Made by a program: the position numbers and the translations under genes. A stretch of DNA of 64,000 nt from Nostoc carneum NIES-2107. Its GTDB lineage: Bacteria > Cyanobacteriota > Cyanobacteriia > Cyanobacteriales > Nostocaceae. The notes beneath the pieces are model-generated. The model saw only the letters and a program-made list of their open reading frames with translations, searched no databases and was not told the origin of the DNA. Shown here one piece after another: positions 18,105 through 55,421 of this stretch (the first letter of the stretch is position 1; each line of letters starts with the position of its first letter). The DNA lies in assembly GCA_002368155.1 (NCBI GenBank), contig AP018180.1, positions 3,226,719-3,290,718 of the forward strand, given 5' to 3'.

Positions 18105-19004
18105 CTATAATCCTTTGGACTTCCGGAATTCGCGGACAACATCTTTAATATCCTGTAATTCACCTTCAACTAGGTAATTTAATTGCCGCATTTCGTCTGC
18201 GGAAATTTTACCAGCTAGTTGAGCGATCGCGTTTTTTAACTGCGGATATTTTTCGAGGATGGCTTTGCGGACAATTGGCGTAGCTTCATAAGGCGGAAAA
18301 TACTGCCGATCATCTTTTAGCACCACTAAACCCAAGCGGGCAATTTGCCCATCAGTGGAATTTCCCGCTACCATATCTACTTGTTTTTGAATTAATGCGC
18401 GATAAATTAAGCCTAAATCCATAATTTGGGGTGGTTTGGCAAAACGTAAATTATAGGTTTTCGCTAAACCCGCAAACCCATCTTCCCGTTCTAAAAATTC
18501 ATAGCCAAAACCGCCTCGCCATTGGGGAGTATATTTAGTAGCTTCCGAGAGAGTTTGTAAATTGTAGCGCCGCGCATCTTCCCCGCGAATAGTCATGGCG
18601 AAAGTGTTTTCAAAACCCAAACTGGGCATGACTTCTAAATTAAATTGTTGGGCGTAGGCTTGCTTGAGTTTTGCGTAAACTATTTTGGGGTCGTTTACTA
18701 CTTGTTGTTTTAAAATACCTGTAAAAGCTGTACCAGTATATTCAATATAAGCATCGATTTTCCCTGCTGTAATTGCACTATGGCAGACAAAAGAACCACC
18801 TAAGCGGGGGCGACGAGCTACTTTTAAATTAGTTGTGGCTTCGATTTGTTGGGCTAAAAGTTCACCTAAAATATCTTGTTCGGTAAAATCTTTAGAAGCG
18901 ACAATAATATCGCCACTGCTAGTTGTATTAGTATTAGGGCTACAACTAGCGATCGCAATTACTAAGGCGACTGTTAATAGGCATAAAGTTATAAATTTTT
19001 TCAT
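18105..19004 (-). CDS. Osmoprotectant-type ABC transporter substrate-binding lipoprotein
   Basis: A 299-residue lipoprotein: hydrophobic signal with lipobox IASC near residue 21, then IIVASKDFTEQDILGELLAQ, the start of the OpuBC/OsmF/ProX-type binding domain. Later DAYIEYTGTAFTG and GNSTDGQIARLGLVVLKDD are characteristic of the family. It would bind betaine, choline or a related quaternary amine outside the membrane; the ligand cannot be fixed from sequence. It is the last gene of an ATPase-permease-binding protein operon, 16 bases after the permease. Confidence 0.88.
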   Translation of the reverse strand: MKKFITLCLLTVALVIAIASCSPNTNTTSSGDIIVASKDFTEQDILGELLAQQIEATTNLKVARRPRLGGSFVCHSAITAGKIDAYIEYTGTAFTGILKQQVVNDPKIVYAKLKQAYAQQFNLEVMPSLGFENTFAMTIRGEDARRYNLQTLSEATKYTPQWRGGFGYEFLEREDGFAGLAKTYNLRFAKPPQIMDLGLIYRALIQKQVDMVAGNSTDGQIARLGLVVLKDDRQYFPPYEATPIVRKAILEKYPQLKNAIAQLAGKISADEMRQLNYLVEGELQDIKDVVREFRKSKGL

Positions 19005-19020
19005 CTTTAAAACATTGCCT

Positions 19021-19653
19021 TCAACCTTTAACCTTTAACTTTCCTTCAATCCAACCAATTGCTAAATCAGCAATTAATGCAATTAATGCTGCAGGAACTG
19101 CACCAGCTAAAATTAACTGATTATTCACCACTGCAATGCCGCGAAAAATAAATACACCTAAACCACCAGCACCAATTGCAGCAGCAATAGTTGCAATCCC
19201 AATGGAGATGACAGTGGCGACTCTGACCCCAGCTAAAATTACTCCCATTGCTAAAGGAATTTCCACCTGTAATAACAATTCTTTATCTGTCATACCCATA
19301 CCTTTTCCAGCTTCTCTAATTGCTGGATCTACACCAATAATGCCAGTGTAAGTATTGCGAATTATCGGTAATAAAGAATATAAAGTTAAAGCTACAATTG
19401 CAGGTACTACGCCAATACCGCCAATTACAGGCACAGGAATTAATAACCCAAATAAAGCCAAACTAGGAATAGTTTGTAAAATATTGGCAATCCCTAAAAT
19501 TGGTTGGCGGAGTTGAGTTTTGCGGGTAATTAAAATACCTAAAGGAATACCGATTAATATAGCAATTCCAATCGCAATGCCCACCATAAATAAATGTTCC
19601 AGCGTATGCTGCAAAATTTCGGGGGCGTACTTAAACAAAAAGAAATCTTTCAT
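19021..19653 (-). CDS. Osmoprotectant-type ABC transporter permease
   Basis: About 210 residues with five or six hydrophobic segments and the EAA-type loop REAGKGMGMTDKELLLQVEIPLA contacting the ATPase. This is the single-domain permease type of OpuBB/OpuCB/YehW systems. The ATG at 19651-19653 overlaps the ATPase stop in an ATGA arrangement, which indicates translational coupling. A longer frame to 19680 would overlap the ATPase by 31 bases and is less likely. Confidence 0.9.
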   Translation of the reverse strand: MKDFFLFKYAPEILQHTLEHLFMVGIAIGIAILIGIPLGILITRKTQLRQPILGIANILQTIPSLALFGLLIPVPVIGGIGVVPAIVALTLYSLLPIIRNTYTGIIGVDPAIREAGKGMGMTDKELLLQVEIPLAMGVILAGVRVATVISIGIATIAAAIGAGGLGVFIFRGIAVVNNQLILAGAVPAALIALIADLAIGWIEGKLKVKG

Positions 19654-20408
19654 AAATTGTCTTGCAGAGAATGCAGACATTGGCGAAAAGCTAGGCTTTC
19701 GGGATGTTGCGATCGCATAAATTCATCCTTTGTCCCTAATACTACCAATTCTCCCCCATACATTAAACCAATTCTCGATGCCAATACAAATGCTTCTTGA
19801 ATGTCGTGGGTGACAAACACAACGGTTTTGCCTAAGTCTTGTTGTAAGCGGCGAAACTCTTGCTGAATTTCCAGCCTGGTAATTGGATCGAGTGCGCCAA
19901 ATGGTTCATCCATTAATAATACAGGCGGATCGGCTGCTAGCGCTCTTGCTACACCCACCCTTTGCCTTTGTCCCCCCGAAAGTTCGTGGGGATAACGCCC
20001 AGCAAATTGTTCTGGTTCTAAACCTACCAAGTGCAACAACTCATAAACCCGCGTTTTAATTTGTTTTGGCTTCCAACCTTCCAAAGTCGGAACTAAACCT
20101 ACATTACGTTCTACTGTGAAATGGGGAAATAAACCAGTCTCTTGAATCACATAACCAATCCTGCGCCGCAGTTTAATTTCGTCCCATTGCGTTGTCGGAA
20201 CGCCATCAAATAACACCTCCCCGGTGGTAGGCGTAAACAGGTGATTAATTAATTTCATTGTTGTAGTTTTACCGCTACCACTGCGCCCCAGCAATACTAG
20301 TGCTTCTCCTTGGCGAATCGAGAAATTGAGATGGGATACTAAAGGGCGATGGTTACGGCTAAAGGTGACATCACGGAATTCAACAGCGATTTGGTGATTT
20401 TTTGGCAT
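19650..20408 (-). CDS. Osmoprotectant-type ABC transporter ATPase
   Basis: A 252-residue ABC ATPase with Walker A GRSGSGKTT, Q-loop in YVIQETGLFPH, signature LSGGQRQRVGVARAL, Walker B PPVLLMDEP and H-loop VTHD. The family is ProV/OpuBA-like, but without the C-terminal CBS domains found in some members. It is the first gene of the three-gene operon; the tandem small-RNA array lies directly upstream. Confidence 0.9.
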   Translation of the reverse strand: MPKNHQIAVEFRDVTFSRNHRPLVSHLNFSIRQGEALVLLGRSGSGKTTTMKLINHLFTPTTGEVLFDGVPTTQWDEIKLRRRIGYVIQETGLFPHFTVERNVGLVPTLEGWKPKQIKTRVYELLHLVGLEPEQFAGRYPHELSGGQRQRVGVARALAADPPVLLMDEPFGALDPITRLEIQQEFRRLQQDLGKTVVFVTHDIQEAFVLASRIGLMYGGELVVLGTKDEFMRSQHPESLAFRQCLHSLQDNL

Positions 20409-20534
20409 GATTTACCTGGTATTTTCTTGATCATCCTATGAGTGTCAAAAATTCTAGTAGTTTTCCGGAATCGTCAAAGCTACCGTTGTAATCATTATCA
20501 GACAAGCAACTATACTGAAGCCCTATACCGAAAA

Positions 20535-20588
20535 GTGCGGGGACATACCCCAACAAAAACCCAGTTGTCACAACTGGGTTTTTGTTTG
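20535..20588 (+). ncRNA. Candidate small RNA, unit 1
   Basis: A TATACC box at 20524-20529 is followed by hairpin 1 (GGGG-acata-CCCC, 20539-20551). Hairpin 2 (AACCCAGTT-gtcac-AACTGGGTT, 20558-20580) ends in TTTGTTT. Hairpin 2 has a T-A pair where the other units have G-C. The 5' end is an estimate; a longer RNA starting nearer TCCGGA is possible. Confidence 0.55.
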
Positions 20589-20753
20589 AGAGTAACTTAC
20601 TGCCAGGATTTCCCGCAATCATGGCAATTTATTCTCCGTAAATTTAAGCATACAAAATTGCTGGGGTGAGGAAGTTCAGTAGTTATCCGGAAGCGGATAG
20701 GGCATTGTTTAAATCATTATTAAACCAACATATAGAAAAGTCTTATACAGAAA

Positions 20754-20806
20754 GTGTGGGGATTAACCCCAACAAGAACCCAGTGAAAACCACTGGGTTT
20801 TTGTTT
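20754..20806 (+). ncRNA. Candidate small RNA, unit 2
   Basis: A TATACA box at 20744-20749 is followed by hairpin 1 (GGGG-attaa-CCCC, 20758-20770) and the terminator hairpin AACCCAGTG-aaaac-CACTGGGTT (20777-20799) with TTTTGTTTT. An upstream hairpin TATCCG-gaag-CGGATA surrounds the TCCGGA motif. Confidence 0.55.
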
Positions 20807-20976
20807 TAGAGTGAATTACTGCAAGGGTTTCCCGCAATCATGGCAATTGACTATCCGTGAATTTAAGCACAAAAAATTGAGGCTGTTAATAAGTTCAGTA
20901 GTTATGCGGAAGCGGATAGGGCGTTGTTTAAATCATTATTAAGCCAGCAACTAATAAAAAAGTTTTATACAGTAAA

Positions 20977-21030
20977 GTGCGGGGATTAACCCCAACAAGA
21001 ACCCAGTGAAAACCACTGGGTTTTTGTTTT
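20977..21030 (+). ncRNA. Candidate small RNA, unit 3
   Basis: A TATACA box at 20966-20971 is followed by GGGG-attaa-CCCC (20981-20993), then the terminator hairpin at 21000-21022 with a following T-run. The layout is the same as unit 2. Confidence 0.55.
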
Positions 21031-21182
21031 ATATGGCATTGCCTACATCGTCATTGATTATCAGTAGAATTAACCATTAAAAAGTGATGGTGTTAATAAG
21101 TTCAGTATTTCTGCGGAAGCGCTTAAAGCAGATTCTTGTAATTATTAGTCCAACAACTTATATATAAGCTTTATAGAGTAAA

Positions 21183-21236
21183 GTTTAGGGATTAACCCTA
21201 ACAAAAACCCAGTGAAAACCACTGGGTTTTTGTTTT
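21183..21236 (+). ncRNA. Candidate small RNA, unit 4
   Basis: A TATAGA box at 21172-21177 is followed by hairpin 1 with changed pairs (AGGG-attaa-CCCT, 21187-21199), so a G-C pair became A-U and the stem was kept. The terminator hairpin is at 21206-21228 with a T-run. Confidence 0.55.
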
Positions 21237-21382
21237 AGATATTTTTCCTCATCTGCTTATTAGACCACTTACAAAAGTGCCTTTTGTAAGAGATGGGTCA
21301 AGAGAAAATACAAAACCTTTTCCCCTTCCCCCTTTACCTTTTCCCAGACTTCTAAAAGAAGTCTATTTTACTTGGTAGTTAC

Positions 21383-23086
21383 TTAATTACTAGCCATTAA
21401 CGCCTTAGTAGCAGACTCTCCAGCTTTGACTAGCTTTCGCTTGAGTTGGAATATCAATAATCCCACAGCACTCCAATAACCCAGAATTGACAGCAATGCT
21501 GTGATGGGTGATATTGAGTTTGCGCCAGGTGCGATCGCAAAAATCGGCCCAATCACTGAAAGTAAGTAGAAATAATTGTTGTCTCTGACGTAAGGGGAGA
21601 ATATAGCTAAAACTATCACTGGTACTACAATGAGAGCAGCAACAGTAGCCGCAGCCCAAAAGATTCTATGCTGATTTTTGGTGAGTAAGAATAGTTGAGC
21701 TATTGATGCATAAAGCATAGCTAAACTACTAGATAACACTAGAGCGAAAATTGCTCTGATTTTTTCATCAAGTTGGACGTGGGAGAGGATAATTAACCCA
21801 CAGATAGCAATAATTGCAATCATGGCATTAATAGCGATCGCTAACAAGCCGGGGCTTTTTTCACCCCAGATCAAATCCTGTACTAGCTTTCTACCTACTA
21901 CTCCTTGAGAATTAGATGTACGACGATAACGCGCCCAATCTTGGAGTGGTTGACGATGAGGATTGAGTGCAGCAATTAAATAAAGAAATAGCCAAAAATC
22001 TAAGAACAATAAGCACATGAGATTTTCAGCTAAGAGATATTTGCTGGTACTTCCCTCCAAAACTAATTTTTGCCAATTTGCACATCCTAAAGTCAGCAAT
22101 GCAAAGCTAGCAGTTAATAAATAACTCTGACGCTTACTCAACATTGTGGTATTGGGGTCACGAAAACAACGTTGTAAGGAGTGCCAAATAAAGTAGGTTC
22201 CTAGACCGTAAATTAATAAAGTAAAGTCAAGTGTTACTACTCTGCTATTTCCCAAAGGTAAAGCAAACCAGTGAAAATTGGTAAGCCAGTAACCAGCATA
22301 ATTAAAAGTAGAATTGATTGCAGAAGACGGAATTAAGAAAGAAGGATTAATCAGTCTAGCAAAAACCAATGGATATTCATTTGATACTTCTTTGAAGGCT
22401 ATGGGCGAAGTAACTAAAAGAAAACCTAAAGCTACACCACTACCTAACCAAGCTTGAAACCCTCCCAACCAGGAACCAACTAAGGCAAATAGCAAGGCGC
22501 TGCTATAGTATAAAATCCCCGCAGCAACCACTACTGTATAAAAGCTGAAAATCTCAGGAAACGAAATTTGCCCAGCTAAACCTAAGCATATATGCAAAGG
22601 AAGCGCTAAGATTACTCCAAGATAAAGTAAAATCGGCACGCCTAACATTTTGCCCAATAAAATACTTCGAGGTGTTTGGGGACTCAGGCGAATAAAATTG
22701 AGAGTTTCACGCCGTTCTTCAGCAGCTAAATCATTAATAATTAGGTAAGTACCAGCAACTAAAAGTGAAATAGAGCCAATAATCCCTAGCCAGGTAAATA
22801 CATCTAAATACCACAATTGCCAGTTGATAATTACATTACCAAATCCATCTGCAAGGCATTGCCGCGAATTATATTCGAGTTTACCTGTACAATATCGGTC
22901 AAAGGAATTGTATACAAGTTCTAGTTTGGTAGGTAACTGGGTTTGAAAATACATAAATATGATAAATTGACCCAGCAATGAGATACCACCAGAAAGTATT
23001 AAGTTGCGCGGCTTTAGCCTTCCTTTAAGTTCGCGCAACAGTTGAGGATTCCAATCTCCTACTTGATTCATCCAATTTAGATTCAT
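21383..23086 (-). CDS. ABC-2 type transporter permease (second of two paralogues)
   Basis: A 567-residue polytopic membrane protein. Residues 10-30 (GDWNPQLLRELKGRLKPRN) are nearly the same as in the upstream gene. About twelve hydrophobic segments follow, with a conserved cytoplasmic AAEERRETLNFIRLSPQTPRS region and a GKMLGVPILLYL segment, as in ABC-2 exporter subunits. It is the last gene of the set with the ATPase at 25100-26050. Substrate unknown. Confidence 0.85.
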   Translation of the reverse strand: MNLNWMNQVGDWNPQLLRELKGRLKPRNLILSGGISLLGQFIIFMYFQTQLPTKLELVYNSFDRYCTGKLEYNSRQCLADGFGNVIINWQLWYLDVFTWLGIIGSISLLVAGTYLIINDLAAEERRETLNFIRLSPQTPRSILLGKMLGVPILLYLGVILALPLHICLGLAGQISFPEIFSFYTVVVAAGILYYSSALLFALVGSWLGGFQAWLGSGVALGFLLVTSPIAFKEVSNEYPLVFARLINPSFLIPSSAINSTFNYAGYWLTNFHWFALPLGNSRVVTLDFTLLIYGLGTYFIWHSLQRCFRDPNTTMLSKRQSYLLTASFALLTLGCANWQKLVLEGSTSKYLLAENLMCLLFLDFWLFLYLIAALNPHRQPLQDWARYRRTSNSQGVVGRKLVQDLIWGEKSPGLLAIAINAMIAIIAICGLIILSHVQLDEKIRAIFALVLSSSLAMLYASIAQLFLLTKNQHRIFWAAATVAALIVVPVIVLAIFSPYVRDNNYFYLLSVIGPIFAIAPGANSISPITALLSILGYWSAVGLLIFQLKRKLVKAGESATKALMASN

Positions 23087-23155
23087 ATTAAAAGCTCTCT
23101 TTTGGTGTTGGGTGTTGGGTGTTTGGCTTTTGTTATTCCTTGTCCCTCCTTCCTC

Positions 23156-25057
23156 TTAACGTTTTGCTAACAAGGCTTTTGTAGCAGATTCTCCTGCTAA
23201 TTTCATCTGCTTTGCTAATTTGATATTTAACAAAATTAGGACAGTTAATTCAGCTATAAATGCCTTAAAAACTGTGCTTGTGGCAGCATATTCTAAACCA
23301 GCCCAAGGAAAGGTAGAAAATAGCCATGCTACTGGATACGCTGCGGGTTTAATATTGAGGATTCCGAGAAACAATGGTGGTAGGAAGACAGCCGCAACTA
23401 TAGTCCCCACTGCCCACATTGAACGATTAGAAGTTTTCATCATTAGCATTAATTGGGCTAAGGTTGCATAAATCATCATTAAGCTAATGAAGAAAGCCAC
23501 AGCTAAAATTGCCTTCGATCTGCCAATCTCATTTACCCAGTTTATGGCATTGTTATGATGAGTATTCAACATCGGTGCAAGTACAATCCAAACTACTAGT
23601 GGAGTAGTTGCGATCGCTAAATTAATCAACATTGCCAATAGTGCTGGGCTTTTTTCATCTACTAGCCAATCTTGGAGCGCAAATTTCCGCAAAAATCCTT
23701 GAAAATTGGCAACTTTTTCATGTCGATATCTTGCCCAATCTTGGATAGTTTGTCTGTGAGGTGACAAAATTACCAGTAAGGAAAGTAATAGCATGATATT
23801 AAAAAATGCTATTAATCCCCAATTTTGACCTATTTGATAGTTCAAATCATAATAACAAGGAATAGATTGACTACCTCTGTAATCTGGGCAGTAATTGTCA
23901 GAGTATTGCAGCGTAAATCCCCAAAAAATCACTTGATAACTCGCCACTAACAAATAACTCTGAACTTTATTGAATATTGCACCATCAGGATTACGAAAGC
24001 GGCGTTTCATTCCTTCCCAAGCCCAGTAAATGCCTACACCATAATTAAATAAATGTAAGGCAAGTAGACCAATCAGATTTTTACCAAGTGGTAAGTAAAA
24101 AAACTGTATTTCTTGTATTGCTGGTTCCTGATATCGGGGTGTGAGATATCCCAGCATACTCGCAGGGTTTAATAAACTTAACCAAGCGAGTAGATTGCGA
24201 AAATCTGCACTATAAAATAAAGTCTGCAAAGTTACGCATACGAAGAGGAGAACTAAACCACTTCCTAACCAAGGTTGAAAACCACTAAACCAACGACTAA
24301 TTAAGCCAAATAGCAATGCATTACTGTAGAAGAAAACACAACTAGCAGCCAGCACTATATAGAAAGCTAGAATCGAAGTAAAGGGAATTTGCGCCGCCAT
24401 ACCTGACAATAAATGTAAAGGTATTGCCGCTAAAACTATGAGATAGACCAGAATAGGTACACCTAACATTTTGCCAGTTAAAATACTGGCTTCCGATTGT
24501 GGACTAAGACGTAAAAAATTCAATGTGCCGCGACGTTCTTCTTGCCCTAAATTATTGATCAGCAAATAAGTCCCAGCAACTAAAAGTGTGAATATAAACA
24601 TCACACTCAGCGTCATAAATATATATTTCCAGTGGTCTTGCCACCACATTTGCATATTTATTTGCTCGGCTGGGCAAGAACTTTGATATAAGATGTTATT
24701 AAGATTGTCGATTTGCTGTTTCAGGGATTTTTGTTCTAATTTTAAATCCGGGATTTTCGCTAATAAATCTGAGTTTAGACTCCCACTATAACTATTGATT
24801 TTGGAGTTAACCTGCTCAAGGCTTTGATTGAGAAAGGTAAGATTTTTTTGATAACCGTCAGCAAGATTGCAGTATATGCCTGACATAGCATATGTTTTGC
24901 CAGGCAAATCGCTGATTTGATATATATAAGTCCCTAGTTGAGTTACTAGGGATATTGCCAAGGCAATTAAAATATTGACAGGTTTCAGGCGGCCTTTGAG
25001 TTCGCGCAACAATTGCGGATTCCAATCACCGATTTTGTCTAACCACTTGAGCATCAT
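23156..25057 (-). CDS. ABC-2 type transporter permease (first of two paralogues)
   Basis: About 633 residues, a paralogue of the next gene with the same GDWNPQLLRELKGRLKP start and EERRGTLNFLRLSPQS region. An extra-membrane insert of about 80 residues (about 50-130) is predicted to form coiled coil (SLEQVNSKINSYSG and following) between the first two membrane segments. The ATG at 25055-25057 with GGAGC upstream is preferred over the TTG at 25072. It probably pairs with its paralogue as a heterodimer driven by the single upstream ATPase. Substrate unknown. Confidence 0.85.
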   Translation of the reverse strand: MMLKWLDKIGDWNPQLLRELKGRLKPVNILIALAISLVTQLGTYIYQISDLPGKTYAMSGIYCNLADGYQKNLTFLNQSLEQVNSKINSYSGSLNSDLLAKIPDLKLEQKSLKQQIDNLNNILYQSSCPAEQINMQMWWQDHWKYIFMTLSVMFIFTLLVAGTYLLINNLGQEERRGTLNFLRLSPQSEASILTGKMLGVPILVYLIVLAAIPLHLLSGMAAQIPFTSILAFYIVLAASCVFFYSNALLFGLISRWFSGFQPWLGSGLVLLFVCVTLQTLFYSADFRNLLAWLSLLNPASMLGYLTPRYQEPAIQEIQFFYLPLGKNLIGLLALHLFNYGVGIYWAWEGMKRRFRNPDGAIFNKVQSYLLVASYQVIFWGFTLQYSDNYCPDYRGSQSIPCYYDLNYQIGQNWGLIAFFNIMLLLSLLVILSPHRQTIQDWARYRHEKVANFQGFLRKFALQDWLVDEKSPALLAMLINLAIATTPLVVWIVLAPMLNTHHNNAINWVNEIGRSKAILAVAFFISLMMIYATLAQLMLMMKTSNRSMWAVGTIVAAVFLPPLFLGILNIKPAAYPVAWLFSTFPWAGLEYAATSTVFKAFIAELTVLILLNIKLAKQMKLAGESATKALLAKR

Positions 25058-25099
25058 AGATAAAAGCTCCAAACAGAGGAATTAAGAATTATTGCGGAA

Positions 25100-26050
25100 T
25101 TAAGATGCTTGCTTGTGCCCTAACTTTAAGAAAATGGTTTCTAAATCTTCTTGGGTGCAGTGAAAATCAGTAATCGGAATGCCAACATGAATTAGCGATC
25201 GCAATAACTCAGCGCTATCTTCCTGCTTACCTGAAAAGTTAATTTTGACGCTGTTTTTACCAGATATTACTTCCCATTCTTCCACCAAAGGATGATGTTT
25301 TACTTCCCGCAGCAATGTTTCTAAATCTCCCAATGTAGACAACACAATTTGTTGACGGGATAGTCGCTGGTAAAGTTGTTGCAGAGAAGCGCTTTCTACT
25401 AAAAAGCCCAGTTCCATAATCCCCACAGAAGTACAGAGTTCTGCTAAATCGCTGAGAACATGGGAGGAAATTAAAATTGTCATTCCCGCTTCTTGCAAAG
25501 CCTTAATAATTTCCCGGAATTGCATCCTGGCGATGGGGTCAAGACCAGAAACAGGCTCATCTAACAGCAGTAAGATGGGTTCATGAATAATTGTGCGCGC
25601 TAAACTTAAGCGCTGCTTCATCCCCCGCGATAGGGTAGAAATTAAGCTATTACGCTTATTACCGAGTTGTATCAGTTCTAATACTTCATGCAGACGTTGC
25701 GTGCGGCGTGGTTCCCGCAAGCGATATAACCGCGCAAAATAATCTAGGTAATCCCAAACTGTTAAATCCTCATACAGTGGGTAGTCATCAGGTAAATAGC
25801 CCAGACGACGCTTGAGAGTGGGATTACTTTTGTCACGCAACAAGCGATCGCCATTAATATAAATCTCACCCGTTGTTGGCTCCTCTGCGGCTGCTAACAT
25901 CCGGATGAGAGTTGTTTTACCTGCGCCATTTGGCCCAATCAGTCCGTATACTTCACCTGCTTGGATCTCTAAATCAACATCATTGACCGCAACATGGCGA
26001 TCAAATTGCTTCGTCAGTCCAGAGGTACGAATTGCTAATTCTTTTACCAT
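25100..26050 (-). CDS. ABC-2 type transporter ATPase
   Basis: A 316-residue ATPase with Walker A GPNGAGKTT, signature LSRGMKQRLSLARTI, Walker B ILLLLDEPVSGLDP and H-loop ISSHVLSD. It belongs to the CcmA/NatA-like class of exporter ATPases. The C-terminal ~90 residues are the usual extension of this class. It is first in the operon, 43 bases upstream of the first permease. Confidence 0.9.
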   Translation of the reverse strand: MVKELAIRTSGLTKQFDRHVAVNDVDLEIQAGEVYGLIGPNGAGKTTLIRMLAAAEEPTTGEIYINGDRLLRDKSNPTLKRRLGYLPDDYPLYEDLTVWDYLDYFARLYRLREPRRTQRLHEVLELIQLGNKRNSLISTLSRGMKQRLSLARTIIHEPILLLLDEPVSGLDPIARMQFREIIKALQEAGMTILISSHVLSDLAELCTSVGIMELGFLVESASLQQLYQRLSRQQIVLSTLGDLETLLREVKHHPLVEEWEVISGKNSVKINFSGKQEDSAELLRSLIHVGIPITDFHCTQEDLETIFLKLGHKQAS

Positions 26051-26698: not shown

Positions 26699-27238
26699 AT
26701 GAGAAATCAGCATCTACAAACTGCATCACTGCCACTGGGAGTGGCAACTGCGATCGCAGAACTACAAGACTTTATCGCAGTTTGTCGCGATGCCCGTGAG
26801 GCAAGAAAAGCCTTGGCAGTCAAGTTGGTTTACCAAGATTACTTATACGAAGAGATTCAAGCAATTTTAGATGTCTCTTTAGGGTCGATAACAGGTTGGA
26901 AGCAAGCTTACGAGCAGGAAGGAATCAATGGACTCAGGCTGAACTACAAAGGACGAAAAAGCCACCTGAGTCACGAACAGCGAGAAGAAGTGTTGAGTTG
27001 GTTACAAACGAAGGACTATTGGGAACTGGGCGAACTGGAGTATAAACTAGCCTTTGAGTACGACATCGTTTATGAGTCAAAACAAAGTTACTACGACTTA
27101 TTTGATGCAGCTGCCATCAGTTGGAAGAAAACCACAAAGCTAAACCCCAAAGCCAATCCAGATGCTGTTGCAGAAAAAAAAAAGAGATTGAAACATTGTT
27201 GGCAAGCAACCGCTCCGAAATCGAAGCCGGAAAATTGA
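26699..27238 (+). CDS. IS630-type transposase, first frame (DNA-binding part)
   Basis: A 179-residue frame with the N-terminal helix-turn-helix (about 40-75, LYEEIQAILDVSLGSITGWKQ) and the following winged-helix/linker (SHEQREEVLSWLQ) of IS630 transposases. It reaches a run of ten A at 27174-27183. After the run, the -1 frame continues the transposase in 27121-27780, while this frame ends at 27238. The natural product is probably the -1 frameshift fusion covering 26699-27780. Confidence 0.85.
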   Translation: MRNQHLQTASLPLGVATAIAELQDFIAVCRDAREARKALAVKLVYQDYLYEEIQAILDVSLGSITGWKQAYEQEGINGLRLNYKGRKSHLSHEQREEVLSWLQTKDYWELGELEYKLAFEYDIVYESKQSYYDLFDAAAISWKKTTKLNPKANPDAVAEKKKRLKHCWQATAPKSKPEN

Positions 27239-27780
27239 GAGTATTGTTAATTGATGAGTGTCATTTAATGTGGGGAGACTTAAGCGGTTATGTGTGGGGG
27301 AGAACTGACCAGGAAATCACGGTTCCAGTCGTAAATGAGCGAGAGAAGCAAACATATTACGGAGCAGTTGACTATCTTGAACGAAAATTACTGCTGAAAG
27401 CTTACGACAGGGGAAATTCAAAAAATACTATCGATTACCTGCAATATCTGCTAACTGAGTCAGGCGACCAGCGATTGCTGATTTTTTGGGATGGTGCTAC
27501 TTACCACCGTTCCAAAGAAATCCAAAGCTTTTTAGACGAACTTAACCAAGGTTTACCACCAGAAAAATGGAAAATTCACTGCGTTCGTTTTGCTCCTAAT
27601 TGTCCAGAGCAAAATCCTATTGAAGATATCTGGTTGCAGGCTAAAACATGGGTTCGACGTTTTTGTGCTTTGATTCCAACATTCTCTCATTTAAAGTGGA
27701 TGTTTGAGTGGTTTATTCGACACACTACCTTTGATTTCACAACTCTTCAGATGTACGGAGTTTTTTCAAAAATCAAATAG
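27121..27780 (+). CDS. IS630-type transposase, second frame (DDE catalytic part)
   Basis: A 219-residue frame carrying the catalytic DDE residues in LLIDECHLMWGD, LIFWDGATYHR and QNPIEDIWLQAK. It is in the -1 frame relative to the first part, entered at the A10 run (27174-27183). The stop codon (27778-27780) lies in the right terminal repeat. With frameshifting the element could still be active. Confidence 0.85.
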   Translation: MEENHKAKPQSQSRCCCRKKKEIETLLASNRSEIEAGKLRVLLIDECHLMWGDLSGYVWGRTDQEITVPVVNEREKQTYYGAVDYLERKLLLKAYDRGNSKNTIDYLQYLLTESGDQRLLIFWDGATYHRSKEIQSFLDELNQGLPPEKWKIHCVRFAPNCPEQNPIEDIWLQAKTWVRRFCALIPTFSHLKWMFEWFIRHTTFDFTTLQMYGVFSKIK

Positions 27781-38207: not shown

Positions 38208-38780
38208 TTAACCTTTTTCAAATACTACATCTTCGTAAAGGTCAGCCATTGTACCTTCAAATTTAATACTCTGTAATTGAAATGATTTATCTGCGGCTGT
38301 GTAAGATTGTAAAACCCAGAACCTTTGCTCATTACGGCGGAAACACTCAACACGCTGACGTTTGGTGTTAATTAAAACGTACTCTTGCAGACTTTCTAAA
38401 GTTTGGTAATCAGCGAATTTATCTCCTCGGTCAAAGGCTTCGGTAGAGTTAGATAAAACCTCGACAATTAAACAGGGAAATTTTTTATAAGCAGGAGTTT
38501 CGCGATCGCGTTCGTCGCCAGTCACCATTACATCAGGATAGTAATATCGATTCAGAGATTCGATGCGTGCTTTCATATCAGCAATGTAAACACGACAGCC
38601 TGAACCGCGTACATGATTACGGACAAGGATAGCAAGGTTGAGAGCAATCGTAACATGGGAGTCGAGCGCTCCAGCCCTTGCGTAAATGTAGCCGTCGATG
38701 TATTCATGCTTGATGTCGCTGTTTTCCTCCATTTGCAGGTATTGTTCAGGGGTGAGGTAGATGTCAGGTGAAGCAACCAT
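38208..38780 (-). CDS. Uma2-family (DUF820) nuclease-like protein
   Basis: About 190 residues with the usual order: YLTPEQYLQMEENSDIKHEYIDGYIYARAG, then YYYPDVMVTGDE, then PCLIVEVLSNST and a LQEYVLINTKRQRVECFRR region. The Asp and Glu of the PD-(D/E)xK-like fold are present. Such proteins are numerous in cyanobacteria; their cellular role is not known. The ATG at 38778-38780 (MVASPDIY) is preferred. Confidence 0.9.
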   Translation of the reverse strand: MVASPDIYLTPEQYLQMEENSDIKHEYIDGYIYARAGALDSHVTIALNLAILVRNHVRGSGCRVYIADMKARIESLNRYYYPDVMVTGDERDRETPAYKKFPCLIVEVLSNSTEAFDRGDKFADYQTLESLQEYVLINTKRQRVECFRRNEQRFWVLQSYTAADKSFQLQSIKFEGTMADLYEDVVFEKG

Positions 38781-39244
38781 AGTGAAGACCTCAGAATTTA
38801 GCAATGGAATTTCTTGATTTTATTTCTATATAGAACTGATATTTGATTTTGGCAAAGCTTAGGTATACCTTTCCTCCTTCTTCCCTCTTAGGGAAGGGTG
38901 AATTGTTCCTAGGCTGATAGTACCTTGAGTGCAAATAGTAATTTACTCAATAATTTATACCAAAAAATCTCATTGTTATTACTTAGGGTATTTATCAACA
39001 TTATTAATCTGCTCAACCAGAGATATTCATCATAAAATCAACAAATTTTCATCAGAAATTCATAATTAAATCATCAAAAATTTATCTATTTTTAGATAAT
39101 CCTCATGAAGATATATTTTCGATGAAGTTAGCAATTATTATTTTTAAGATTTCAATAACGATCAACTAATCTTAACCTGATATATACGTATAAAGCTTAT
39201 ATTTTACGCAAAGCAATTTAGGAATTATTTGTAGATAAAAAATT
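38781..39244. other. AT-rich spacer upstream of the first malectin-propeller gene
   Basis: About 460 bases with many AT tracts. No gene was recognised. It should contain the promoters of the two divergent flanking genes. Confidence 0.4.
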
Positions 39245-42200
39245 ATGGCTGCCATCAGGATTAATGTAGGGGGACAAGCATATACAGATGGACAAGGTAA
39301 TCAGTGGCTTGCAGATCAATATTTTTCAGGCGGTAATACCTATGCGACAACAGCTGCGATCGCCAATACAGTTGAAGACCCTCTTTATCAAAACGAACGG
39401 TGGCTGAATGACTTTTCCTATGCAATTCCAGTAGCTAACGGAGACTATACAGTTAAGCTGAAGTTTGCAGAATTGTACTTTACATCTGCTGGTCAACGCG
39501 TCTTTGATGTGAAAGCAGAAAGTAATTCAGTAATTACTAACTTGGATATTTTCAAAGAAGCTGGTGCTAACACAGCTTTAGACAAGTCTTTCACAGTCAA
39601 AGTTGCTGATGGTACATTAAATTTAAATTTCCTCTCCAGTGTCAACAATGCCAAAGTTGATGCGATTGAAATAATTCCCGTTACGACAACTCCAACTGCA
39701 CAGGTAATTGTGCAACAAAGTGGCGGAAATACTGCGGTGACTGAAGGTGGTGCTACTGATAGTTACTCATTAGTTCTTAGCAGTCAACCCACCGCCAATG
39801 TCACTATTAACCTGGGGACAACTGGTAATCAAATCACTTTAGATAAAACTAGTCTGACTTTCACTCCTAGTAATTGGAATACAGCACAAACAGTTACTGT
39901 TAAAGCCGTTGATGATACTGCTGTGGAAGGAAATCACACAGCTAATATTACCCACACCGTCAGCAGCACAGATAGCAAATACAATAATTTTGCTGTGGGT
40001 AATGTTGTAGTTAATATTACTGATAACGATACTGCTCCCACGCCACAAGTAATTGTGCAACAAAGTGGCGGAAATACTGCGGTGACTGAAGGTGGTGCTA
40101 CTGATAGTTACTCATTAGTTCTTAGCAGTCAACCCACCGCCAATGTCACTATTAACCTGGGGACAACTGGTAATCAAATTACTCTCGATAAAACTAGTCT
40201 GACTTTCACTCCGAGTAATTGGAATACAGCACAAACAGTTACCGTTAAAGCTGTTGATGATACTGCTGTGGAAGGAAATCACACAGCTAATATTACCCAC
40301 ACCGTTAGCAGTACAGATAGCAAATATAATAATCTCGCTGTAGGTAATGTTGTAGTCAATATTACTGATAACGATACCGCTCCCACAGGTAAAGCCATAC
40401 GTATTAATGCAGGTGGCGCAGCTTTTACAGATGGACAAGGGAATCAGTGGCTTGCAGATCAATATTTTTCAGGCGGTAATACCTATGCGACAACAGCTGC
40501 GATCGCCAGTACAGTTGAAGACCCTCTTTATCAAAACGAACGGTGGCTGAATGACTTTTCTTATGCAATTCCAGTAGCTAACGGAGACTATACAGTTAAG
40601 CTGAAGTTTGCGGAACTGTTTTTTAATGCTGCTGGTCAACGCGTCTTTGATGTGAAAGCAGAAAATAATTCAGTAATTACTAACTTGGATATTTTTAAAG
40701 AAGCTGGTGCTAACACAGCTTTAGATAAGTCTTTCACAGTCAAAGTTGCTGATGGTACATTAAATTTAAATTTCCTCTCCAGTGTCAACAATGCCAAAGT
40801 TGATGCGATTGAAATCATTCCCGTTACGACAACTCCAACTGCACAGGTAATTGTGCAACAAAGTGACGGAAATACTGCGGTGACTGAAGGTGGTACTACT
40901 GATAGTTATTCATTAGTCCTCAGTAGCCAACCCACCGCCAATGTCACTATTAACCTGGGGACAACTGGTAATCAAATTACACTAGATAAAACTAGTCTGA
41001 CTTTCACTCCCAGTAACTGGAATACAGCACAAACAGTTACTGTTAAAGCCGTTGATGATACTGCTGTGGAAGGAACTCACACAGCTAATATTACCCACAC
41101 TGTTAGCAGCACAGATAGCAAATACAATAATTTTGCTGTGGGTAATGTTGCAGTTACTATTACCGATAATGATAGTAATCCCACTCCTACGCCTGGAGCG
41201 ATTCGGATTGATGTAGGTGCAACTCAAAGTTTCACTGATACTCAGGGTCAAGTATGGCAAGCCGACCAGTATTTTGTTGGAACTAGTAATATCTATACTG
41301 TCACTGCACCTATTGGCAAAACAGAAGATGACCTTTTATATCAAACAGACCGTTATGCCCAAAACTTGGCTTACGAAATTCCCGTAGCAAACGGTAACTA
41401 TAAAGTCAATCTTCACTTCGCAGAAAATTACTGGACTGACTTCGATCAACGGGTATTTGATATTTCTTTAGAAGGTCAGAAAGTTTTCTCCAATGTAGAC
41501 ATTTTTAAACAATCTAAAAATGCTTTCTTCCCAGGAAATAACTCTGCTTTAGTGTTATCTGTTCCTACCCAAAATGTTAGTGATGGCAAACTTAACCTCA
41601 ACTTAGATGCTAGCATTAACAACGCCACAATCTCGGCAATTGAAATCATTCCCTTAACAGGTTCCCAAGTTATTTTGCAACAAACGGGGGGTAGTACAGC
41701 AGTTGCAGAAGGTGGTGCTGGTGATAGTTACTCGTTAGTTTTAAATAGCAAACCCACCGCCAATGTCACAATTAACTTGGGAACAGACAAAGCTAACCAA
41801 ATCACCCTCAACAAGAGTAGTTTCACATTTACTCCTGATAACTGGAATATTGCACAAACTGTTACTGTCAATGCCGTTGACGATAAGTTAGTAGAAGGTA
41901 ATCACACAGTCAACATTAGTCATACCGTTACTAGTTCCGATAGCACATATAACAATCTCAGCATTCCCAAAGTTGCTGTTAGTATTGCAGATAACGAAAC
42001 AGTTGCCATCAGCTTTACGCAAAAAGTAGTAGCGACAATCAATGAGTCCACACCTGCTGGCCCTACTACAGGCGCTTGGGGCCCAGATGGCAGGCTTTAC
42101 GTAGGCGATTACGATGGCACTATCAGAGCATACACTTTCGATCAGAATTACAACGTTACCAATACCCAAGAGATTACTACTCTTAAGGGCTTATATAACA

Positions 42201-43540: not shown

Positions 43541-43624
43541 TGAACCTAGAGATTGTTTGAAAAGCGATTGGTTGTTGTACACTTATTGATCCCCTGTAAT
43601 CCAATACAGTTCAGTTAAGCTCAT

Positions 43625-43896
43625 TAGCGATTGATTTGTCGCTTATTAAAGAAGCTAGCTCAATTGGGGGATTCTCCCCCAAACCCCCGATTGGGTGACG
43701 GTTGCGTCCCCCAAACCCCCTCCAAAATGATTGTTCTGTTTTGTGTTGAGTAACTAGTTTTAGCGATTGATTTTTCACTTATTAAAGAAGCCAGAAGAAT
43801 TGGGGGATTCTCCCCCAAACCCCCGATTGGGTGACGGTTGCGTCCCCCAAACCCCCTCCAAAATGATTGTTCTGTTTTGTGTTGAGTAACTAGTTT
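43625..43896. repeat. Tandem 136-bp repeat (two copies)
   Basis: Two adjacent 136-bp copies each begin TAGCGATTGATTT and end GAGTAACTAGTTTT. They contain GGGGGATTCTCCCCC and a G/C-rich stretch. A third copy lies at about 62772-62910, so the family is dispersed as well as tandem. Confidence 0.85.
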
Positions 43897-44024
43897 TTTG
43901 GTTTTGTGATCAATTAATTTTCTTAACTGAACTGTATTTCCCCCTGCTACTTGCGCTTGTCAGGTAAACAAGGGGATTTATCTTAGCACTTTAGTGAAAG
44001 GTTAGAAAACTGCAATAAAAATCA

Positions 44025-48591: not shown

Positions 48592-48985
48592 AATACCATT
48601 TTGAACACATAACGTTGCAGATAGTTATAACAACAGAATCCACTATCGTTAAGTCAATAGCGGCTATTCTCAACTCAGTAGCGGCTATTCTCAACTCAGT
48701 AGCGGCTTTGCTCAACTCAGTAGTGGCTATTCTCAACTCAGTAGTGGCTATTCTCAACTCAGTAGTGGCTATTCTCAACTCAGTAGTGGCTATTCTCAAC
48801 TCAGTAGTGGCTATTCTCAACTCAGTAGTGGCTATTCTCAACTCAATAGTGGCTATTCTCAACTCAATAGTGGCTATTCTCAACTCAATAGCGGCTTTCC
48901 TAATATTTCCTACCTCTTGTTTTTGCCTCTTGCCGTGCCGCTACAAAGAATTTATCTGCTGCAAACATTATTTGAATTGGTATAA
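48592..48985. mobile_element. MITE family A, copy 5, carrying twelve 21-bp tandem repeats
   Basis: The ends AATACCATTTTGAACACATA and CATTATTTGAATTGGTATA match the family, and CTTGCCGTGCCGCTACAAAG is its central part. Between about 48650 and 48900 there are about twelve copies of a 21-bp unit containing GGCTATTCTCAACTCA. The period keeps open frames on both strands, but no start signal or family supports a gene. Confidence 0.7.
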
Positions 48986-55165: not shown

Positions 55166-55421
55166 AGTTTTTTGCTCTCGTTAACTTATGTAAATTAATG
55201 TAACGGAATTGTTACGAATTGACAAGAAGGCTTGACACAGAAAAACTAATACCTCTGATAAAAGGTATTTATAAAAGTGAACAAGAAAAATCCCTAGCTG
55301 AAAGCTAAGGATTGACAAGCAACTATGTCCAATGTGCGTTGGTAGCAGCGAAGGTTAGGACAGGGGTTAAAAACTGTTTTCCTTTCCCCTTTTCCCCCTT
55401 ACCCTTTCCCCCACATTCCTG

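Follow-up and report, generated by a model that had tools for sequence, protein, structure and literature searches.

A candidate family of small RNA genes with DIF-like upstream boxes forms tandem arrays in Nostoc carneum NIES-2107 and recurs among its relatives

A tandem array of candidate small RNA genes

The stretch of DNA analyzed here (the window, 64,000 nucleotides of Nostoc carneum NIES-2107, to whose numbering unprefixed coordinates refer) contains a tandem array of four units that we regard as small RNA (sRNA) genes. Judged by sequence comparison, they belong to a gene family with a conserved upstream pattern, paired stems, a spread over many genomes, and repeated arrays. The best reading of the units, which we consider reasonably probable, is a tandemly arranged family of trans-acting sRNAs under DIF control. 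Two models served to follow the family, R1, made from the ten units of the N. carneum genome, and R2, made from 36 sequences and 95 positions long.

The whole array, as delimited by repeat copies and R2 matches, occupies 20464..21241 on the plus strand, and in a profile search R2 matches its four units at 20499-20593, 20718-20812, 20940-21035, and 21146-21241 (+). The unit starts are spaced by 219, 223, and 206 bp, and Tandem Repeats Finder calls a repeat of period 219 at 20524-21031. In accordance with the preliminary description of this DNA, the units are direct plus-strand copies that each have a DIF-like hexamer, a hairpin of the G4-N5-C4 type, and a strong terminator with a T-run, and the hexamer, at 20464, 20686, 20905, and 21112, is TCCGGA in units 1 and 2 and TGCGGA in units 3 and 4. 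Specifically, in unit 1 the DIF box TCCGGA (20464..20469, +) lies at -35 of the R2 start and is followed by a predicted RNA of about 87 nt (20500..20586, +), both ends of which are placed by the promoter profile, the R2 match, and the fold, with a start that may instead be 20499. This RNA would contain hairpin 1, GGGGACATACCCC (20539..20551, +; from fold and sequence), and a terminator hairpin plus T-run (20552..20586, +; from repeat copies and fold) with arms of 17 nt that are fully complementary. The DIF box TCCGGA of unit 2 (20686..20691, +) lies at -32 of the R2 start, and the predicted RNA (20719..20805, +) has a 5' arm unlike that of unit 1. Units 3 and 4 have the DIF-like TGCGGA, with one mismatch, at 20905..20910 (+; -35 of the R2 start) and 21112..21117 (+; -34), and their predicted RNAs are at 20941..21028 (+) and 21147..21234 (+), that of unit 4 having A-U as the outer pair of hairpin 1; the ends of the RNAs of units 2 to 4 are likewise inferred, from fold and R2 match. 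Taken by itself, TCCGGA shows a mild excess in the window (12 occurrences against 6.7 expected, with 3 of 100 shuffles reaching 12); its value as evidence comes from its position within each unit and not from its number.

The window also holds tandem repeats of 345 bp x 2.0 (95%) at 39699-40386, of 136 bp x 2.0 (95%) at 43624-43897, and of 21 bp x 11.6 (96%) at 48654-48896, as well as many 7-bp repeat arrays. Two overlapping ORFs of 179 and 219 aa at 26699-27780 (+) are presumably a frameshifted IS630-type transposase.

On one side the array is flanked by an OpuC-type operon (18105-20408, minus strand) and on the other by three minus-strand genes (21383-26050). The operon has the domains PF00005, PF00528, and PF04069, which bears out its earlier naming as an osmoprotectant ABC operon, and is made up of the ABC ATPase (19650..20408, -), which is its first gene and the divergent neighbor of the array, a permease (19021-19680, -), and an OpuAC-domain gene (18105-19004, -). 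A special tie of the array to osmoprotection does not hold up, as copies in other genera adjoin many other genes and the pairing of unit 1 with the start of the opuC ATPase gene is weak (-6.3 kcal/mol). The units could nevertheless exert cis-antisense control over the opuC operon, perhaps as an added local role. They stand in the same place, divergent to the same ATPase gene, in all eight same-genus genomes examined, the window's included, and this is the geometry reported for NsiR1.1 and hetF (PMC9045159, PMC8406250). However, a promoter-like match for opuC at 20448-20421 lies between the array and the gene, so that overlap is not required, and the copies elsewhere have other neighbors. We hold such cis-antisense control to be very unlikely as the explanation of the units.

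Folding and covariation of the predicted RNAs

When a stretch of 69-70 nt from each of the four window units was folded, z-scores of -5.1 to -6.3 were obtained and none of 200 shuffles was as good. That the stems are kept by paired changes, as had been pointed out from the letters of the window, was confirmed for both hairpins: hairpin 1 is GGGG/CCCC in units 1 to 3 and AGGG/CCCT in unit 4, and the loop-adjacent pair of the terminator is U-A in unit 1 and G-C in units 2 to 4. Across 107 R2 matches (103 distinct), in an alignment that was fitted to R2 and so leans towards the model, standard pairs make up 96.3% of cells, double changes occur at 8 of the 13 pairs, and the covariation score is 0.239 compared with 0.172 after shuffling, a value reached by none of 500 shuffles. 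Sliding the partners by one column lowers pairing to 59.5% and 70.9%. Double changes were also found at 5 of the 13 pairs in a MAFFT alignment of the 36 sequences. The stems of the family covary.

In the family consensus the unpaired 5' arm consists of AGACAAGCAAC and then a doubled UAUAAnUAA motif, and the small G-C hairpin has a conserved AnnUA loop. Within the window AGACAAGCAAC is kept by unit 1 only and units 2 to 4 have drifted; outside the genus the near-invariant columns of the arm are those of the doubled TATAAnTAA. It should be noted that hairpin 1 has a second possible meaning, as PMC4192349 gives GGGnnnnnCCC as the sequence that HetR needs for binding. The units could be DNA elements without RNA function, in which hairpin 1 would be a HetR operator and the palindromic terminator would insulate the flanking genes. 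GGGn5CCC is present in 29 of 36 copies, including all four window units, and the terminator, which is located between two minus-strand operons, is nearly symmetric, so that both strands score with the model. In the other 7 of 36 copies, however, a changed loop length or a substitution removes GGGn5CCC, yet four or more stem pairs can still be drawn (a permissive count in which G-U is allowed), and the loop columns A, T, and A of hairpin 1, invariant in 59/59 copies outside the window's genus, are asymmetric, unlike a dimer site. As the promoter-like pattern and the unpaired arm are conserved as well, we judge a purely DNA-borne function to be quite unlikely, and we return to the units as sRNA genes.

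The upstream pattern and the start of the RNA

None of the copies was found by means of the 90 nt that precede the R2 start. Under the DIF+ criterion, which allows one mismatch to TCCGGA near -35 and by which a set of 58 promoters was collected (PMC6133370), 79 of the 107 copies carry a DIF-like hexamer exactly at -35, either TCCGGA itself (16) or one of five variants with a single mismatch (TCCGAA 26, TCTGGA 24, TGCGGA 8, TCAGGA 3, TCGGGA 2). These hexamers are not independent events, since the 107 copies include many close relatives, 48 of them from the window's genus. Like DIF+ (DIF1) promoters, then, the sRNA copies have at -35 a hexamer with at most one mismatch to TCCGGA, but the exact sequence is a minority form there (16/107), most copies having TCCGAA or TCTGGA. 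DIF1 promoters are described as driving heterocyst-specific, HetZ-dependent expression (PMC6133370, PMC7377430), and the -10 region of DIF+ promoters is reported to be unlike TATAAT (PMC6133370); the sRNA family, whose -10 block is TGTAGTnATTAT, was compared with them by its -35 hexamer.

Outside the genus (59 copies), upstream conservation is highest in two blocks, TTTTCC..AAT at -38 to -28, mostly with 0.9-1.5 bits, and GTAGT at -11 to -7, with 0.9-1.2 bits, after which comes a weaker nATTAT. Column -22 also stands out (A, 0.85 bits), and between -90 and -39 the maximum for any column is 0.46 bits. In the pattern of all 107 copies the TGTAGTnATTAT block precedes the predicted RNA start, and it is from this upstream pattern that an RNA of about 87 nt is predicted. 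Of the two starts that the preliminary description had offered, the pattern favors that which follows TCCGGA by about 35 bases and not the one near the hairpin. The TATAC/TATAG taken there for a -10 box is probably not one, as it lies inside the predicted RNA and the hexamer ends in T in just 15 of 107 copies.

The same sRNA gene might instead be transcribed from this inner TATA box, which lies just before hairpin 1; the RNA would then be about 50 nt long and the upstream blocks would act as activator sites. The inner TATAAnTAA stretch is nearly invariant and a CAGACA/TAGACA hexamer is found some 19-20 nt before it, but the spacing to this presumed -35 hexamer is long, the inner hexamer is so seldom T-ended, and the conserved blocks at -38 to -28 and -11 to -1 would need another role. 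At the inner hexamer position 5 of the 107 copies have no TATA. We regard the inner start as unlikely and retain the predicted transcript of about 87 nt.

Distribution, array history, and genomic context

The new RNA is common yet not universal in the taxonomic family surveyed, where R2 finds it in 135 of 192 genomes (E 0.001) and R1 in 118 of 192 (E 0.01), whereas NsiR1 is present in 192/192, from which the whole group looks heterocystous. R2 also matches all 13 genomes of one other genus (E 0.01). Across the phylum it matches 13 of 292 genomes, all 13 in the same taxonomic family, and in that sample at least 19 other members of the family have none. Within the order, R1 matches 5 of 243 genomes at E 1e-4, one of the five (G227, E 6.4e-5) belonging to another family. 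Searches of plasmid records gave fifteen matching records for a copy from another genus and two weak partial matches for a window unit, and the phage records are without a match.

BLAST of one unit against its own genome matched the four window units and, at C1:1847904-1848675, five further places, nine in all. This second array, between a cytochrome-c-type gene and a 125-aa gene, has six units of about 168 bp each, all of which are found by R2, giving 10 copies in two arrays. The ten units align over 130 columns, from the DIF box to the terminator, with a mean column identity of 84%. At the opuC site the seven same-genus relatives have 5, 4, 5, and 5 copies in four genomes and one each in three, and the second array in those four has 3, 5, 3, and 4 copies. 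In one same-genus genome (G108) the opuC unit is the sole R2 match, and in another genus a five-copy array (L069) stands beside an EVE-domain gene. On this comparison arrays seem to arise repeatedly from single units.

The second array (L009:7916-8849, -) also lies tail to tail with a match to PsrR1 (RF02701; 7818-7896, +), with a gap of 19 nt, and the same arrangement is seen in L055, L057, and L061. PsrR1 is found near copies in L068, L191, L200, L226, and the plasmid locus L232 as well, and occurs in 8 of 12 loci chosen for ssl1498 or the second array and in 0 of 14 others.

No neighbor dominates the 48 loci outside the genus. Within 5.2 kb of them we found a tyrosine recombinase at 11, an HNH-type protein at 10, an ssl1498-type protein at 8, ArfB at 7, and EVE at 5, as opposed to 0/96 control loci for each, a contrast that is suggestive because the choice of query families followed inspection of the loci, some of the recombinases were matched weakly, at about 25% identity, and hetF or CHAT loci made up all 96 controls. 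In each of the four plasmid records examined a recombinase lies 2-3 kb away. Runs of 4 to 25 tRNA genes are present in seven loci (L201, L202, L211, L217, L218, L224, and L227) of the 14 sources scanned, 12 of which were R2 loci selected largely because a recombinase or HNH-type protein lies nearby, and six of these seven also have a tyrosine recombinase. Among other observations at single loci, one sRNA copy (L235:5018-5108, +) is about 160 nt upstream of a gene on the same strand that we take to be psbA (D1), and a CyVA-1 RNA match (L200:5809-5886, -) and a single CRISPR-DR5 match (L221:6487-6523, +) lie near sRNA copies.

The recombinases, on chromosomes and plasmids alike, and the tRNA arrays at several loci would fit a repeat that is itself a mobile or recombination element, either a site or a passenger of tyrosine recombinases. 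However, 37 of the 48 loci have no recombinase with the queries used, the window and its array sites have none among their listed genes, and the neighbor families were, as stated, chosen with the loci in view. A recombination site would also leave the conservation of promoter, arm, and terminator unexplained, and we give this reading a very low probability.

Proposed mechanism and its meaning

We propose that each unit is a complete sRNA gene, in which a DIF-like box at -35 and a TGTAGTnATTAT-type block would direct a transcript of about 87 nt that consists of an unpaired 5' arm, a small G-C hairpin, and an intrinsic terminator. If NsiR1 is taken as the guide, DIF control would switch the sRNA on in cells differentiating into heterocysts, so that the family is probably expressed in differentiating cells, and the unpaired arm would act in trans by base-pairing to the start-codon regions of mRNAs. 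The tandem copies would raise the dose. As the arms of units 2 to 4 have drifted, they could spread the targets, in the manner of NsiR1.1 and NsiR1.4, the variants for which different targets are on record (PMC9045159). Transcription, cell type, dependence on HetR or HetZ, and targets are the parts of this scheme that we infer. In a target search over 54 local ORF starts per unit, the best predicted target of unit 1 was an ORF antisense to the second array itself, followed by a 199-codon gene (38208-38804; -25.6 kcal/mol, interrupted duplex), and none of these starts gave a convincing target. Elsewhere in the window no site is exactly complementary to all 11 nt of AGACAAGCAAC, and a 10-nt complement is found at 55314 (-).

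No entry of Rfam 15 matched the sRNA family in the window search, and no such family is named in the titles or abstract openings of the listed papers on NsiR1, NsiR2, NsiR9, and DIF1 or sRNAs. An orthologue could be among the 327 sRNAs predicted for PCC 7120 in PMC4734099. We tentatively put forward a wider view, to which we give somewhat less than even weight, that this is a second DIF-driven sRNA family, independent of NsiR1, that rides on plasmids and on islands with recombinases and tRNA arrays, expands time and again into tandem arrays at new locations, and thereby connects mobile regulatory RNAs to the cell-differentiation program of the host. A non-exhaustive search of titles and abstract openings brought up no tandem DIF-driven sRNA array other than NsiR1. 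If a second, unrelated family has the same build, sRNA gene multiplication under DIF control would be a general device in these bacteria and not one odd locus. The plasmid copies prompt the question of whether a bacterial pathway of cell differentiation receives regulatory RNAs from mobile elements. With R1, R2, and the promoter pattern, existing RNA-seq data can readily be searched for the family.

Comparison with NsiR1 and other heterocyst-related RNAs

The preliminary description left it between a relative of NsiR1 and a new family, and the evidence favors a new one; by sequence the array is not NsiR1, and the Rfam covariance search is without an RF02399 match. In the window there are no Rfam matches at gathering score, and RF02399 is absent from the 27 rows returned for 20400-21300 at E up to 5. 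Those 27 rows, with a best E of 0.028, are weak matches to other families below their gathering scores and were taken as chance. As had been claimed, the array is not beside hetF: a hetF-like gene elsewhere in the same genome has its own NsiR1 array, of 13 repeat units with RF02399 matches above gathering score, which lie upstream of and divergent to it. The product of this gene, 828 aa with one predicted TM segment at 571, was taken as HetF and fits the CHAT-TM order described in PMC8406250. Two other CHAT proteins were set aside as hetF candidates; the 828-aa protein fits that order and adjoins the RF02399 array. At 36 hetF loci (the N. carneum locus and 35 of 80 listed, 8 of the 35 with less than 3 kb upstream of hetF), R1 gave three weak matches, with a best E of 0.18. 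A relocated NsiR1 would account for the tandem array, DIF boxes, terminators, and divergent neighbor gene, but the Rfam result, the 13 matches at the genome's own hetF-like gene, and the R1 search of hetF loci together refute it at the level of sequence, and we assign it practically no probability. In one further genome (G033) two separate RF02399 groups were seen, at C1:2559275-2559584 and 5512574-5513543, so arrays of NsiR1, too, may leave the hetF site.

The two families differ in several respects. The window units are unlike NsiR1 in sequence and structure, NsiR1 is about 60 nt long compared with the roughly 87 nt predicted here, and the new RNA is not beside hetF and also occurs as single scattered copies on chromosomes and plasmids. 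The -10 block of the NsiR1 units of N. carneum is AACAATTAAAT-like, unlike that of the new family, so the two need not be controlled alike. NsiR8 and NsiR9 of PCC 7120 are a further point of comparison, by description: both are reported as HetR-dependent sRNAs found only in heterocystous genomes (PMC4734099), a habit that the new RNA may share, and their reported lengths are 171 and 122 nt.

With NsiR1, the likeness is one of build. Both are short RNA genes in tandem direct arrays, here of four units and of six in the second array, with intrinsic terminators, a divergent neighbor gene, and copies that differ in sequence. The DIF feature of NsiR1 at -35 has its counterpart in TCCGGA in two of the four window units and TGCGGA in the other two, at -35, -32, -35, and -34 of the predicted start, and in the NsiR1 units of the same genome the distance from the first T of TCCGGA to where the Rfam match begins is likewise 35 nt. 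Judged from its sequence, the window array is built like NsiR1, yet it is no member of NsiR1.
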